A DNA stretch of 7,731 nt, taken from assembly GCA_021780095.1 (NCBI GenBank), contig JAJXZK010000024.1, forward strand, positions 1 to 7,731, written 5' to 3'. The notes beneath the pieces were generated by a model that was given only the letters and a program-made list of their open reading frames with translations, was not told where the DNA came from and did not search any database. Shown in pieces: positions 2,784 to 7,731 of this stretch. Source of the stretch: Acidobacteriota bacterium. Lineage in GTDB: Bacteria > Acidobacteriota > Terriglobia > Terriglobales > Acidobacteriaceae. Positions within the stretch are counted from its first letter, which is position 1, and the number at the start of each line of letters is the position of its first letter. The position numbers were made by a program, and so were the translations under genes.

Positions 2784-2860
2784 GGCGGCGTAGCTCAGAT
2801 GGTTAGAGCGACGGACTCATAACCCGTAGGTCAGTGGTTCGATTCCACTCGCCGCCACCA
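2784..2860 (+). tRNA. tRNA-Met (CAT), elongator type, CCA encoded
   Basis: The full cloverleaf can be drawn. The acceptor GGCGGCG (2784-2790) pairs with CGCCGCC (2850-2856), followed by discriminator A and an encoded CCA (2858-2860). The D stem is GCTC/GAGC. The T stem AGTGG/CCACT closes the loop TTCGATT. The anticodon loop CTCATAA puts CAT at 2818-2820. The first base pair is a normal G1-C72, so this is not the initiator, which has a mismatch there. The anticodon stem ACGGA/CCCGT has an A-C opposition next to the loop (positions 31 and 39). A CAT anticodon could also belong to the lysidine-modified tRNA-Ile. Elongator Met is preferred on overall resemblance, but this is not certain. Confidence 0.92.
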
Positions 2861-2947
2861 AAAAATCAATACCATTCGCGGATCTCAAAACCCGCAATCA
2901 TCTCCATCACCGACCCAACTCTTCTCCGGTTTAAGATGGGGACTACG

Positions 2948-4543
2948 ATGCTGCCCACACCCAACACGCTATTGCTGCTGGTCGATGGATCGTCTCAGCG
3001 TGAGGCAGTCATGGCTCACTCCCCCTTCACAATTGGTCGTTCTCCCGATCGCGACCTGGTTCTTCCATATCCCTACATCTCGCGCAATCACGCCGAAATT
3101 CTGTACGAAGGGGGCCAGTTCCACCTGGTCGACTGCGGCAGCAAGAGCGGCAGCTACATCAATGGCAGGCGCGTCGAGCGCCAGACATTGATGCCGAACG
3201 ACGTCATCCGTCTAGGCACGCTGCAGGGGCCATTCCTGCGGTTTGGCAAGGCGGAGGATACAACCTCCGTCCTCAGCGACCTGCTGCATCGCGAACAACC
3301 GACATCGGACCTGGAAAAACTCAGCTGGTTTCTCGATGCGGCGCGCAAGCTGAATATGGTGGGTGCCGTCCACGAGATTCTCATCTCGCTGCTTGAAACC
3401 ACCATGCACCTCACTGAGGTCGAACGCGGTTATGTCTTCCTGAAAGATTCGACCGGCAATTTGCATCTGGCGGTTGGCCGAAACATTCAGATGGAACCGC
3501 TGGAGGACGACTCGACCGTCTCGCATTCCGCTATTCAACAGGCGATTCACAGCGCATCCGAGTTCATCGTGACCGACACGCTTTCCGGCGCTGCGGGATC
3601 TCCGTCGGCAAGCATCGTGGCCCAGAGCCTTCGCACCGTCATCTGCATCCCGCTGCGCAAGCGCTCTGTGGACCCTGACTCTCCCCTCGCGGAAATTCTC
3701 GGGATTCTCTACCTTGACAGCCGCCAGCAACGGCAAAGACTGATGCGCGTCGACAGCGATTTATTAAGGACCATCGCAATGGAAGCGGCAGTGTTGGTCG
3801 AAAATGCATCTCTCGCCAGCGCTGAGGAATCCGCGCGCCGGTATCGCGAAGAGTTGGGCATCGCGGCTGCAATCCAGCAAGGTCTCATGATGGTGAGAAT
3901 TCCGGAGCTGTCCTATGCGCGCGTTCTCGCTCATAGCATTCCCTGCAAGGAAATTGGCGGCGATTTCTACGATGTCATCGCCACCGACACCGCGCTTTAT
4001 GTCGTTGTCGCCGACATTTCAGGAAAAGGAGTTTCCGCCGCCCTACTGGCCTCTACGCTGCAGGGGCTGGTGCATGCACAGGTGCTGGCCGGGCTGTCGC
4101 TGCCGCAGATAGCCATGTTCTCGAACAAATACATCTGCGAGAAGTCGATTTCAAAATATGCCACCTTAATCCTGTTGAAGCTGACGCCGGATGGCTCTCT
4201 GGAATATCTCAACTGCGGGCACGTGCAGCCCTTGCGCCACCGAACTGGCGAAATTGCAGCTCTCGCAAACGGGAATCTACCGGTGGGGTTGATGCCCGAC
4301 GCCGTCTATAAATCAGAGATGATTCGCGTCGAACCCGGCGAGCGGATAATTGTCTTCACCGACGGCGTTACCGAAGCAGAAGATCCGGCGGGAGAGTTTT
4401 TTGGCGATGCGCGACTTGAATCTTCCGTGGTGGGGGGCGGCAGCATTCAGGAAATCTTCCACCAGGTGCAGCGCTTTATGGATACCGCCCCAGCGGCCGA
4501 CGATTGCACCGTCCTTGAGGTCTGCTACGGGCGATGTCAGTGA
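2948..4543 (+). CDS. FHA-GAF-SpoIIE (PP2C-type) serine/threonine phosphatase
   Basis: 531-residue cytosolic signalling protein with no membrane segment. Residues about 8-100 form an FHA domain, a phosphothreonine-binding module, with Gly30-Arg31, the SRNHAE motif at 45-50 and NGR at 72-74. Residues about 125-288 fit a GAF sensor domain. A helical linker EELGIAAAIQQGLM (301-314) is typical of the segment before SpoIIE/RsbU phosphatases. The PP2C-like domain follows: EIGGDFYD at 335-342 (Asp339), VADISGKG at 354-361 (Asp356), CGHVQP at 423-428, FTDGVTEAED at 470-479 (Asp472) and DDCT at 518-521. The metal-binding aspartates are thus kept and activity is expected. ATG 2948 has GGGGA 5 bases upstream. 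ATG 2936 in the same frame is possible, and the frame is open back into the tRNA, which is not coding. It heads the five-gene plus-strand run, and its stop lies close to the next gene. By family it would remove phosphate from Ser/Thr of a partner protein; the partner is unknown. Confidence 0.9.
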   Translation: MLPTPNTLLLLVDGSSQREAVMAHSPFTIGRSPDRDLVLPYPYISRNHAEILYEGGQFHLVDCGSKSGSYINGRRVERQTLMPNDVIRLGTLQGPFLRFGKAEDTTSVLSDLLHREQPTSDLEKLSWFLDAARKLNMVGAVHEILISLLETTMHLTEVERGYVFLKDSTGNLHLAVGRNIQMEPLEDDSTVSHSAIQQAIHSASEFIVTDTLSGAAGSPSASIVAQSLRTVICIPLRKRSVDPDSPLAEILGILYLDSRQQRQRLMRVDSDLLRTIAMEAAVLVENASLASAEESARRYREELGIAAAIQQGLMMVRIPELSYARVLAHSIPCKEIGGDFYDVIATDTALYVVVADISGKGVSAALLASTLQGLVHAQVLAGLSLPQIAMFSNKYICEKSISKYATLILLKLTPDGSLEYLNCGHVQPLRHRTGEIAALANGNLPVGLMPDAVYKSEMIRVEPGERIIVFTDGVTEAEDPAGEFFGDARLESSVVGGGSIQEIFHQVQRFMDTAPAADDCTVLEVCYGRCQ

Positions 4544-4555
4544 CACCCGCGCAAG

Positions 4556-6241
4556 TTGCCAAACTCAAATTCGCCGCAATGCCTCATCTGTGCTCTCGAC
4601 ATCGGCATGCGTGACCCCATGGGGAAGGAATCCTCGAACCGCCCGACGGAGGAACCCCGACTACTCGTCCTCGGGTATCGCGGCACGCTTCGATCATCGC
4701 GCAGCGAGAACCTGCCGCCTGCAATGGAAACGCTGCTGGAGCCGTGGCTCGCGAAGGCAAGGTATTGGCTGAACCAGCGGGTTCCTCAGCCCCACCGCAC
4801 ATTCCAGGACGAGCCCGTTCCTCTGGACTCTATCCTTCCGATCCTCAAAGAGAGGCTGATTGGCATTTTTACCCAGGTTCTCGGCGCCATCGGCAATGAG
4901 GCCGGCGAACCATCTGCGACGAACATCTATCGCGAATTCCCGCTGCTGCCATCACTGATCCGGGGTGCAATTTCGGAGTGGGTCGCGGCCATCGCTACAT
5001 TTCTTCAGCGGCTGCATCGAGATGAACCATGGTTAGCCGCCGGTCTGCAGCCTAGCGGGTTGCCCCCGATCCAATCCATCTCCGGAACCGCGTCGGACGC
5101 ACACGCCGGCGGTCATGCCGTGCTGCGCGTCTGCTTCCAGGGAGGCCGCTGCCTGTATTACAAGCCGCGCCCACTCACCGGGGAGTGGCTCTGGCAAACC
5201 CTGCTCGACGCCATCGCTCGCATCGATCCGCAAGTGCAGCTGCCAGCTGCCCGCGTGTTCACAGGCGACGCTACGAGTCGCTACGGTTGGGCTGAATCGG
5301 TGTTTCCGGAAGAGAACTTCTTCTCCAATACCTCAGACCCCAGGCCTCCGGCCGCGGTCGATTATTGGCATGCCGCCGGAGCCATTCTTTGCCTTGCGCA
5401 ACATACCCGTCTGACCGACCTGCACCTTGGGAATATTGTCGCCACTCCCTCAGGGCCAGCCGTTGCCGACGCTGAATGTTTTGCCACCCCGCTCCTTCGT
5501 CAGCTTCTCGACAATACACCCTCGCAACAGGCCCTCGTCGCCGGTTCAGTGGAAGCGATCCTCAGCACCGGACTGCTACCCCACAAACAAGATTCCGATC
5601 TGCCGGATGTCTCCGGCTTGTTTGGACACGCCGCACCCGTCTCGGGCGTCAGGCTTCCAGCATGGTCGCTCTCTCCAGGCGGCCGTTATCAACTCACTTC
5701 CGTCGGCGCGGAACTTGTCGCCCATGGCAACGTACCCACCCAGACCACTCCCATTGTGGTCCTGCCGCAAATGTTGAGCGGCTACCGTCATGCCGCCGAG
5801 CTACTGATCCGTGCCCGCAAAACACTCCTCGCGCCGGATTCGCAATGGCGTTCGGTCCTTGAGAAACTGCACGCCCCCCGCATCGTGCTTCGCGACACCG
5901 TTACCTATGGTTGCCTGCTCAGCCGGTCGCTCGAGCCACAATATTTGCGCTCCTGCTACCGTCGACGGAACGTCCTTCTTGCCGAGCTTCAATCCCATTC
6001 TCGACAGAGCCTCCCTGCGGCTCTTTTGCGTGCTGAACTCGCCGCAATCCTGCAACTTCACATTCCTCGCCTGACTATTTTGCCCGGCAGCCTTACCCTC
6101 GCAACCGGTTGCGGACGCGCGATTGCCCGCAGGTTCACCGCCTTGACTCCGCCTCAATCCCTCCTCCCGTCGATCGAAACACTATCATCCGAAAGCATCG
6201 ATAACCTTCATGTTCCTGCGCTGTTAGCGGCCATGTTGTAG
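4556..6241 (+). CDS. Stand-alone LanM-type lanthipeptide dehydratase domain (DUF4135), no cyclase
   Basis: In LanM enzymes this domain phosphorylates Ser/Thr of a peptide with ATP and then eliminates phosphate, giving Dha/Dhb. Numbered from TTG 4556 (561 residues), the landmarks are: EFPLLPSLIRGAISEWVAA (127-145) and FLQRLHRD (149-156), which match the helical lead-in; SDAHAGGHAV at 180-189 (Asp181, His183; usual form GDxHxGGRxV); YYKPRPL at 201-207 (Lys203); YGWAESV at 243-249; TDLHLGNIVA at 287-296 (Asp288, His290, Asn293); ADAECF at 304-309 (Asp305, Glu307); and PRIVLRDTVTY at 441-451, whose Arg442 and Thr448 have the spacing of the elimination pair in LanM. The family's DIPxF appears as HIPRL (502-506). 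The protein ends where LanC would begin (full LanM is about 900-1000 residues), so the Zn-binding cyclase is missing. The start is uncertain: TTG 4556, ATG 4607 and ATG 4619 all lack a good Shine-Dalgarno, and the recognisable fold begins near residue 52. Confidence 0.85.
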   Translation: MPNSNSPQCLICALDIGMRDPMGKESSNRPTEEPRLLVLGYRGTLRSSRSENLPPAMETLLEPWLAKARYWLNQRVPQPHRTFQDEPVPLDSILPILKERLIGIFTQVLGAIGNEAGEPSATNIYREFPLLPSLIRGAISEWVAAIATFLQRLHRDEPWLAAGLQPSGLPPIQSISGTASDAHAGGHAVLRVCFQGGRCLYYKPRPLTGEWLWQTLLDAIARIDPQVQLPAARVFTGDATSRYGWAESVFPEENFFSNTSDPRPPAAVDYWHAAGAILCLAQHTRLTDLHLGNIVATPSGPAVADAECFATPLLRQLLDNTPSQQALVAGSVEAILSTGLLPHKQDSDLPDVSGLFGHAAPVSGVRLPAWSLSPGGRYQLTSVGAELVAHGNVPTQTTPIVVLPQMLSGYRHAAELLIRARKTLLAPDSQWRSVLEKLHAPRIVLRDTVTYGCLLSRSLEPQYLRSCYRRRNVLLAELQSHSRQSLPAALLRAELAAILQLHIPRLTILPGSLTLATGCGRAIARRFTALTPPQSLLPSIETLSSESIDNLHVPALLAAML

Positions 6242-6253
6242 CCTCGGTGGTCC

Positions 6254-6272
6254 CGAATCATCCCATGATTTG
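6254..6272. repeat. Short inverted repeat in the gap before the small peptide gene
   Basis: AATCAT (6256-6261), a CCC spacer, then ATGATT (6265-6270). The match extends by one G-T and one C-G pair to 8 pairs in RNA. It lies 12 bases after the dehydratase stop in the longest gap of this gene run (6242-6344). It could be an operator half-site pair or a small mRNA hairpin. No T-run follows, so it is not an intrinsic terminator. Confidence 0.3.
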
Positions 6273-6317
6273 TGTGCTAACATTCGGATGTGTTGGGAGC
6301 GTCATCATGGTCTCGGA

Positions 6318-6339
6318 CCTCTCAACAACCTTGAGAGGA
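6318..6339 (+). promoter_or_regulatory. Hairpin enclosing the Shine-Dalgarno of the small peptide gene
   Basis: CCTCTCAA (6318-6325) and TTGAGAGG (6331-6338) are perfectly complementary over 8 bases around a 5-base loop. The Shine-Dalgarno GAGAGGA (6333-6339), 5 bases before ATG 6345, forms the 3' arm almost exactly. In mRNA this would hide the ribosome site, suggesting control of peptide translation or coupling to an unseen factor. The pairing is seen directly; the regulatory role is inferred. Confidence 0.5.
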
Positions 6340-6344
6340 CTGCA

Positions 6345-6548
6345 ATGACTAACGTAGAGAGGCTTCAACAAGCTGGATTGGTTCAAATTCACCACCCCCT
6401 CACAGATGACGAAATTCAAAGTGTCAATGCACTCAACGCAGCGGAAATTGACGCACTCATTTCAGTGCGCGCCAAGCTCGGCGATGCCTTTTTCCAGCGC
6501 AAGGTAAAAGACGGCGATTCCCATCGCATGGGAACTGTAATGCTCTAA
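6345..6548 (+). CDS. Small peptide, candidate RiPP precursor without cysteine
   Basis: A 67-residue product of no recognised function, placed between the LanM-type dehydratase and the haem-oxygenase-like enzyme. The ATG at 6345 is fixed by a strong Shine-Dalgarno, GAGAGGA, 5 bases upstream. The frame is open further upstream (TTG 6270) but without ribosome site support. Residues 1-50 look like a leader: acidic, mostly helical, with LTDDEI (19-24) and AAEIDALISVRAKLGDAFF (32-50) forming amphipathic helices. The C-terminal stretch from Gln51 (QRKVKDGDSHRMGTVML) is basic and polar, with Ser59 and Thr64 as the only hydroxyl residues available to a dehydratase there. There is no Cys anywhere, so a lanthionine ring cannot form within this peptide, and no GG-type cleavage site is seen. 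The helical pattern recalls, from memory, short leader-like proteins found in RiPP clusters; this is unverified. It could instead be a small regulatory or partner protein. The reading frame itself is well supported, the precursor role moderately. Confidence 0.7.
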   Translation: MTNVERLQQAGLVQIHHPLTDDEIQSVNALNAAEIDALISVRAKLGDAFFQRKVKDGDSHRMGTVML

Positions 6549-6605
6549 CTCAGAGCTCGCAGTCGGCAAGGTTCCGGGGAGAGCCATGGTCGCAGGGGAG
6601 ACGGG

Positions 6606-7349
6606 ATGACGACGCAGAGTCAACGTCTGCGCGAAACGGTGTCCCTTGTTCGGGGACATCTCAATCGCTTGATTCATGAAGTGTGGTTTCACCCACGTTT
6701 GAGCGAACTCTTTCCTGAATTCCTATTTGCCATGTACGGCATCACGGTCGCTTCGGCTCCAGCCATGCGGTCCGCAGCGACGTGTTGCTCTGCTTTGGCT
6801 GCCGACGATCCTATCGAGATTTGGCTCCGTGATTATTATCTGGAACACGCCGACGAAGAAGCAGGCCACGAACAGTGGCTGCTGAATGACCTTGCTTCCT
6901 TCGGCATTCCGCAGGACCAGGTATTGCAGCGGCTGCCCTATCCAAGCGTGGCCGCCTTGGTGGGCGTCCAGTATTACTGGATGTTTCATGTTCACCCGAT
7001 CGCATACCTGGGATACATTGCCGTGGTCGAAGAGCCGGCATCGATGGAATTTCTGGAGACGATCTCCCGGCGCACCGGTATTTCGCTTTCCTCCATGTCT
7101 GGCCACGCGATGCATGCCAGGTTGGATCCGGATCATGTTGCGGAATTCGATGCAGCGCTCGATGCATTGCCCCTGCGGCAGCATCATCAGGATTTGATTT
7201 CCGTCAGCGCCATCGCCACTGTGGCGCATCTTGAACATGTCTTTTCCGAGATTCTCGAGCACTTCGAGCGTATCGGCGATCCAGTCACGGCCGCGACCAT
7301 CTTTACCTCTCCCGGAGTAGCCCTGGCAGCACCGCCCCGAGAGTTCTAA
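6606..7349 (+). CDS. Haem-oxygenase-like di-iron-type oxidase (HDO / iron-containing redox enzyme family)
   Basis: 247-residue, mostly helical cytosolic protein. The pattern of likely metal ligands is that of the HDO superfamily, relatives of PqqC/TenA folds that include UndA- and BesC-type oxidases. The first ligand helix is YLEHADEEAGHEQWLL (78-93), with Glu84 and His88 in ExxxH spacing. A second helix carries VVEEP at 140-144 (Glu142/143). A third is HAMHARLDPDH at 167-177, with His167 or His170, Asp174 and His177 (DxxH). Such enzymes bind two irons and use O2 for C-C or C-H cleavage or N-oxygenation. The substrate cannot be told from sequence; PqqC-like cofactor-free chemistry is less likely given the full ligand set. 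ATG 6606 has a strong AGGGGAG 5 bases upstream. It follows the small peptide by 57 bases and ends one base before the kinase gene, so it is in the same operon. The context suggests that the peptide, or the dehydrated peptide, is the substrate (inference). Confidence 0.8.
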   Translation: MTTQSQRLRETVSLVRGHLNRLIHEVWFHPRLSELFPEFLFAMYGITVASAPAMRSAATCCSALAADDPIEIWLRDYYLEHADEEAGHEQWLLNDLASFGIPQDQVLQRLPYPSVAALVGVQYYWMFHVHPIAYLGYIAVVEEPASMEFLETISRRTGISLSSMSGHAMHARLDPDHVAEFDAALDALPLRQHHQDLISVSAIATVAHLEHVFSEILEHFERIGDPVTAATIFTSPGVALAAPPREF

Positions 7350-7350
7350 T

Positions 7351-7731
7351 ATGCAGATGGCCTTCAATCCCGGAGACGAACTCCTGCAGTATCGCCTTGT
7401 CCGCAAGCTCGGAGAAGGCGGGATGGGTGTCGTCTTTGAGGCCGAGGACATCCGGCTTCAACGAACGGTTGCGATCAAGGTGCTGCAGCCTGCCATCTCA
7501 GAAGATGTCGAGATGCGCGAACGATTTCTGCGCGAGGCCCGCGCCGCATCCGCGATCGACCATCCCAACCTGTGCACCATCTATACAGTCGAAACAGCTC
7601 CCGACGGCTCACTGCTGCTGGTGATGGCCTACTACCGCGGTCAAACTCTTTCAGAGCTCATCCTCCGCGGTCCCGTCGACGTCGCCCGCATTCGCGACAT
7701 CGGCCGCCAAGCTGCCTCCGGTCTTCATGCC
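7351..7731 (+). CDS. Hanks-type serine/threonine protein kinase, N-terminal part (cut by window edge)
   Basis: 127 residues are visible; the gene continues past the window. The N-lobe is clear: a Gly-rich loop LGEGGMGVVFEAED (20-33), the ATP-anchoring lysine in VAIKVL (Lys43), the alpha-C glutamate in RFLREARAAS (Glu62), then HPNLCTIY (71-78) and the hinge LLLVMAYYRG. The window ends before the HRD catalytic loop, so activity cannot be judged, and any sensor or membrane part is unseen. The start is ATG 7351, one base after the stop of the oxidase gene. It has only a weak GAGA upstream, so translation is probably coupled; ATG 7357 is an alternative. With the FHA-GAF-phosphatase at the head of the same run, this gives a kinase/phosphatase pair flanking the peptide-modifying genes. 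The sequence style is typical of the many such kinases in Acidobacteriota and Myxococcota. Confidence 0.93.
   Translation, partial: MQMAFNPGDELLQYRLVRKLGEGGMGVVFEAEDIRLQRTVAIKVLQPAISEDVEMRERFLREARAASAIDHPNLCTIYTVETAPDGSLLLVMAYYRGQTLSELILRGPVDVARIRDIGRQAASGLHA

Follow-up and report, generated by a model that had tools for sequence, protein, structure and literature searches.

A 7,731-nucleotide stretch from a bacterium of the family Acidobacteriaceae (contig JAJXZK010000024.1; the window, meaning this stretch at its full length) was found to contain an operon resembling those for ribosomally synthesized and post-translationally modified peptides (RiPPs). The core of the system consists of a small peptide and a heme-oxygenase-like dimetal oxidase (HDO), while a stand-alone LanM-type dehydratase (DUF4135) is an add-on of one branch. 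On balance, we favour the view that the tail of a fixed peptide is modified by the HDO in all cases and by the dehydratase in that branch, and the operon suggests as its product a modified peptide of a type that has yet to be described. All three open reading frames (ORFs) were confirmed in the ORF list of the window, on the plus strand and in the order dehydratase, peptide, HDO, as an earlier sequence-only reading had stated. The named records related to the window are acidobacteria. The features are as follows.

2936..4543, + strand: FHA-GAF-SpoIIE (PP2C-like) phosphatase (Pfam; start from comparison with the related locus L002)
4607..6241, + strand: stand-alone LanM-type dehydratase (DUF4135), 544 aa (Pfam, NCBIfam, PDB relatives, alignments)
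6345..6488, + strand: leader-like part of the peptide, residues 1-48 (related to NCBIfam aroma_sacti_dom NF045560)
6489..6548, + strand: core-like tail of the peptide, residues 49-67 and stop, ...GDSHRMGTVML (pN/pS, alignment A1)
6534..6536, + strand: codon of Thr64, fourth residue from the C-terminus, proposed dehydration site (alignment A1)
6606..7349, + strand: HDO, 247 aa (PF14518, conserved residues, fold model)
7351..7731, + strand: N-terminal part of a Ser/Thr protein kinase, truncated where the window ends (Pkinase match of 52.2 bits in this fragment)

Linkage and distribution of the operon genes

The genes for the dehydratase, the peptide and the HDO were found in this order and on one strand in 14/15 related loci; in the fifteenth (L008) the contig breaks off within the dehydratase gene. 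Downstream, the same 14 loci encode a Ser/Thr kinase and a papain-fold protein, further ORF clusters having been set aside by the neighbour-family clustering as antisense or off-frame by their coordinates. The sequence-only reading had described a compact three-gene set; the trio does belong together, but the set also includes the kinase and the papain-fold protein. In locus L010 about 2.6 kb with other ORFs (11645-14250) is inserted between the dehydratase and the peptide, the remaining operon order being intact.

In a sample of 298 genomes of the order, in which absences are approximate because the genomes are of unstated completeness and a limited number of candidates was scored in each, profile A3 (E<=1e-20) detected the HDO in 28 genomes. 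The peptide lay directly before the HDO and on the same strand in 28/28; it was recovered with profile A1 in 24 of these genomes and by a motif and a wider profile in the other four, which were later recovered with leader profile A5 as well. Profile A5 found a leader peptide in exactly the 28 HDO genomes, one of which (G080) carries a second leader, a match that is partly built in, because A5 was made mostly from peptides beside these HDOs. The kinase directly followed the HDO in 27/28 genomes, the exception being G083. The dehydratase (>600 bits) was present in 10/298 genomes, all of them within the 28 and all from the 15 loci already known. These ten were exactly the genomes in which the peptide has the tail H-R-M-G-T-x-x-[LIF]. 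Seventeen other genomes, without the dehydratase, encode tails ending in P-N-[FI]-x-[VI], in which the Asn sits where Thr64 stands, counted from the C-terminus. In the remaining genome, G104, the tail is of yet another type and the contig begins about 260 bases 5' of the peptide, so that a dehydratase may have been cut off there.

Since 18 of the 28 genomes with peptide and HDO are without this dehydratase, the HDO needs no dehydrated substrate. The linkage of the three genes, the lack of LanC and of Cys, the conserved residues and an invariant Thr64 speak for the dehydration without ring closure proposed in the sequence-only reading, but the dehydratase is not central to the system, the core being the peptide with the HDO. 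In a tree of 30 HDOs (the 28, the window and L091) the dehydratase subtype formed one group with support of 100/99, so that the gain (or loss) of the dehydratase and the change of the tail are to be counted as one event. Sister to this subtype was the HDO of G104 (L060 230-1189), whose peptide tail is longer, rich in Ser/Thr and holds Cys.

The small peptide

The peptide (6345-6548) comprises 67 aa. Fifty-four homologues with 61-91% identity were found, 53 of which align over the whole query, and the mean ratio of non-synonymous to synonymous polymorphism (pN/pS) was 0.23 (91 pairs from 14 of 15 sequences; L004, with a peptide one residue longer, was excluded), the leader and the tail each giving 0.23. 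The homologues and the pN/pS together indicate that the peptide is more than a chance ORF. In alignment A1, which contains the window and all 54 homologues, Cys occurred in the peptide part of 0/55 rows, so the absence of Cys read from the single sequence holds for the family. Thr64 was the only invariant Ser/Thr of the tail (T in 55/55 rows, row P0174 being out of frame there), and Ser59 was Ser in 37/55 rows.

The N-terminal 48 residues aligned with NF045560, which with NF045559 represents the leader domain of aroma-sacti/StsA-type sactipeptides in NCBIfam. Against NF045560 the window peptide scored 24.9 bits, under the cut-off of 30; the model was matched by 54/55 peptide rows at E<=0.01 and by 16/16 rows of a wider leader family, in which a relative with the other tail type reached 40.5 bits. 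Unlike sactipeptides, the peptide offers no Cys for sactionine bonds, and no radical SAM protein was noticed among the shared neighbours of the operon, no radical SAM profile having been run.

The HDO

The oxidase had been named an HDO from its sequence, an identification borne out by a PF14518 match of 36.6 bits (cut-off 28.9) and by a structure model, which predicts a heme-oxygenase fold resembling that of UndA, CADD, HrmI and AetD. Residues E84, E85, H88, E142, D174 and H177 were kept in 30/30 and 19/19 rows and H170 in 29/30 and 19/19 rows; alignment A3 consisted of the window and 29 of 120 listed homologues (346 found). Judged by these residues, the HDO has, like known HDOs, what would be three His and three carboxylate metal ligands, with H81, E84 or E85 as the candidates for the ligand on the first helix. 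According to literature excerpts, the substrates of known HDOs (UndA, CADD, HrmI, AetD, MboA) are small acids, amino acids, residues of the own protein and a ligase-made tripeptide. The tripeptide is attacked by MboA at its C-terminal residue (excerpt of PMC13185094), which gives a precedent for an HDO in a peptide pathway. An aliphatic C-terminal residue is common to the tail types and might, as a guess, be where the HDO oxidises the peptide.

The dehydratase

The dehydratase ORF is open from a TTG at 4556 to 6241; comparison with homologues makes the ATG at 4607 the likelier start (residue numbers count from the TTG). The nearest homologue has 544 aa and is 99% identical, and lengths range from 544 to 561 aa with DUF4135 as the only Pfam domain. 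DUF4135 was matched with 190.9 bits (cut-off 29) over model positions 1-375 of 378, while the NCBIfam LanM model TIGR03897 covered only positions 86-503 of 932 and gave 173 bits against a cut-off of 304. The Pfam scan detected no LANC_like domain in the ORF, which ends where LanC would begin, in agreement with the sequence-only reading.

LicM2 and CylM were the PDB relatives by sequence, and as in these LanM enzymes the DUF4135 domain carries both kinase and elimination residues. Excerpts of PMC4550811 assign phosphorylation in CylM to K274, D347, H349, N352 and D364 and phosphate elimination to D252, H254, R506 and T512. In the alignment CylM D252, H254, K274, D347, H349, N352 and D364 correspond to D181, H183, K203, D288, H290, N293 and D305; R506 and T512 were taken as R442 and T448 via the LicM2 alignment and equal spacing. 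These nine catalytic positions were identical in 44-45/45 rows of alignment A2 (the window and 44 of 120 listed homologues), and phosphorylation and elimination therefore both look possible from the residues present. The most plausible role of the enzyme is to dehydrate Thr64 without any ring being formed.

The DUF4135 protein might instead be a peptide kinase only, so that Thr64 would stay phosphothreonine, read by the adjacent FHA-phosphatase, and no dehydration would take place; we hold this to be unlikely. FHA domains bind phosphothreonine. A tblastn search of the window protein against the neighbourhoods placed homologues of the phosphatase near the operon in 9/15 dehydratase loci, and position 64 of the tail holds Thr in every row of A1 and never Ser. 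Excerpts of PMC10676384 further report that the excised dehydratase domain of CcaM gave no dehydration alone, whereas those of CylM, HalM2 and NukM suffice for it. However, the equivalents of the four CylM elimination residues are as well conserved as the rest, and phosphatase homologues were also found near 3/14 loci of the other subtypes (L040-L049, L078-L081), namely L048, L080 and L081, where both the dehydratase and Thr64 are missing.

We regard as highly improbable a hidden class II lanthipeptide pathway, completed by a LanC encoded at a distant site of the genome and by a second peptide that does contain Cys. LANC_like was found in 0/15 genomes carrying a close dehydratase, while the identical search was positive in 1/14 control genomes, and the peptides are uniformly Cys-free; the missing cyclase of the sequence-only reading thus extends to the relatives. 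In favour of a hidden pathway it counts that this search covered related genomes, the window's own not being among them, and that 14 of the 15 are metagenome-assembled genomes.

Kinase, phosphatase, peptidases and neighbouring genes

Two genes had been overlooked in the earlier reading, the kinase, whose start at 7351 is one base past the HDO stop, and the phosphatase upstream of the dehydratase. Relatives of the kinase were found in 14 loci (blastp cluster); three of them were scanned with Pfam and had about 800-860 aa with C-terminal TPR repeats. The Pfam scan of the phosphatase ORF (2834-4543) gave FHA with 72.9 and SpoIIE with 123.3 bits.

In relatives of the dehydratase subtype the gene after the kinase, which would lie beyond the window end, encodes a protein for which the structure model predicts a papain fold. 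Of 14 aligned rows, at least 90% kept C51 and C52, a region disrupted in the row of L005, and all 14 kept H180. The copy in L002 (Acidipila rosea; 15170-15934) matched PHROG 19005, a family of unknown function, with 52.6 bits, indicating that phages carry relatives of the papain-fold protein. In operons with P-N-[FI] tails, by contrast, the position directly after the kinase was taken by a Pro-kumamolisin-type peptidase in 5/12 loci with enough context (L046, L049, L079, L080 and L081, among L040-L043, L045-L047, L049 and L078-L081).

Left of the operon lie ordinary-looking genes: a probable nucleoside diphosphate kinase at 45-458 (assigned by eye), a cytidylyltransferase at 1699-2499 on the minus strand (Pfam), which we take to be KdsB, and also a tRNA-Met.

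The leader beyond the order and a parallel DUF4135 system

Seven of 347 sampled genomes of the phylum had the HDO, and six of these seven are also in the sample of the order. The curated leader model matched ten of the 347 genomes, six over the cut-off, these ten being the seven HDO genomes and three others. In G549 the match without an HDO was over the cut-off; in G485 and G320 the matches were weak and inside long frames. The leader thus also occurs apart from the HDO, as would suit a RiPP leader that can be reused, and the strict pairing within the order does not hold across the phylum. The G549 peptide (L131 8614-11919) has the tail ...AFGILH and lies beside an FAD oxidoreductase and a LodA-type oxidase (LodA_N, 256.1 bits); the HDO profile had no match in this stretch. 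The second leader domain of G080 (L120, about 1492-1686) is fused, with a tail of its own, to the C-terminus of an apparent histidyl-tRNA synthetase, assigned by eye.

Such a fusion would suit a small protein that is no precursor but regulates a partner such as the kinase, or acts as its adaptor, the HDO and the dehydratase acting on other small molecules or proteins. The conservation over the whole length, with the same pN/pS in leader and tail, and the kinase adjoining in all but one of the 28 genomes are also consistent with this possibility. We nevertheless consider it doubtful: the leader is related to a domain that, judging by its name, was curated from RiPP clusters, the tail type varies with the enzyme set, the papain-fold protein goes with the operon, and the LanM enzyme CylM works on ribosomal peptides (excerpts of PMC4550811).

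Nine further DUF4135 matches, each below 165 bits, were obtained in the 298 genomes. Three of the matches that were checked carry LanC (G086, G268 and G159), four are stand-alone DUF4135 frames of 453-502 aa (G074, G150, G041 and G239), and the remaining two are those of G264 and G095. Pfam found no domain other than DUF4135 in the two stand-alone frames scanned (L084 and L082), while L087 and L088 were assigned by profile A2 and length. The four stand-alone frames belong to a parallel system at the following loci.

L082 3515-8430 (G239)
L084 5523-10741 (G074)
L087 5746-10759 (G150)
L088 4752-9936 (G041)

The order there is one or more NHLP-like small peptides (motif search), a middle protein, the DUF4135 frame and a Ser/Thr kinase. 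The middle protein has about 310-390 aa, its four copies being mutually 42-54% identical, and it gave no confident Pfam match, the best being polyprenyl synthetase with an E of 0.075 (L082). The peptides end in LT, LT, IT and VS.

Comparison with known systems

No description of this gene combination was found in the searches made of open-licence papers, in line with the sequence-only reading, which knew of no such pathway; the parts, however, have precedents. Compared with LanM enzymes, the system differs in lacking a LanC domain, both in the protein and in the related genomes, in its Cys-free peptide and in a score under the LanM model cut-off. In the dehydrazoles (carnazolamide, CcaM) DUF4135 likewise yields dehydroamino acids in a product free of lanthionine rings; according to the excerpts of PMC10676384, however, the dehydrazole synthetases depend for their activity on a class III cyclase domain to which they are still fused, and their cores bear azoles, are rich in Ser, Thr and Cys and have a YcaO partner. 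Among the identified shared neighbour families of the operon there was no YcaO, a YcaO profile not having been run. In nostatin A, NstG is a LanM-like enzyme proposed to make dehydroalanine and dehydrobutyrine in a RiPP, but that pathway differs in its YcaO-type azole formation, epimerase and sactionine bond (excerpts of PMC11583998). The thiovarsolin cluster supplies a heme-oxygenase-like protein in a RiPP context, VarO, inferred there to be an Arg dehydrogenase; it differs in its YcaO-TfuA thioamidation and repeating precursor, and DUF4135 is not among the seven genes named in the excerpts of PMC6511847. A LanM-like protein is also tied to peptide signalling in the case of the Agr effector CA_C0082, which, in contrast to the dehydratase described here, is without the catalytic residues (excerpts of PMC10301443).

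Proposed pathway and its significance

From the computed genes, their linkage and conservation, the conserved active-site residues and the modelled folds we infer the chemical steps, the cleavage and the biological role as follows. The 67-aa peptide would be a precursor with residues 1-48 as recognition leader and the last 19 residues as core. The HDO, its constant partner, would oxidise the core, most plausibly at or near the aliphatic C-terminal residue. In the one branch the dehydratase would phosphorylate Thr64 and then eliminate the phosphate to give dehydrobutyrine, which would never be closed into a ring, because cyclase and Cys are both absent. The papain-fold protein would then free the modified tail.

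The product would be fixed and not diversifying, and our guess from the kinase and the FHA-SpoIIE phosphatase is that it is an object of sensing or regulation and not an antibiotic. Only tentatively do we propose that the operon makes a peptide signal, or a cofactor, for use inside the cell: a short peptide from the C-terminus, which the HDO has oxidised and which in one branch bears dehydrobutyrine, might be freed by the papain-fold protein and bind to the TPR repeats of the kinase, and the kinase and the FHA-SpoIIE phosphatase might turn it into a phosphorylation output. The parallel system of four genomes, with its NHLP-like peptide, putative second enzyme, DUF4135 and kinase, agrees with such a scheme.

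If the proposed pathway is right, the operon would represent a new RiPP-like family with the HDO as its constant enzyme, in a little-studied phylum. A comparison would be built in, since the dehydratase is present in some of the related operons and absent from others, and the fourth residue from the end of the peptide differs between them (Thr or Asn). The action of a LanM dehydratase without a cyclase and of an HDO on ribosomal peptides would become testable, as would the question of whether acidobacterial Ser/Thr kinases read modified peptides. Should the signal reading be true, RiPP chemistry would gain a new function, that of providing a bacterial Ser/Thr kinase with a fixed, built-in modified-peptide input.

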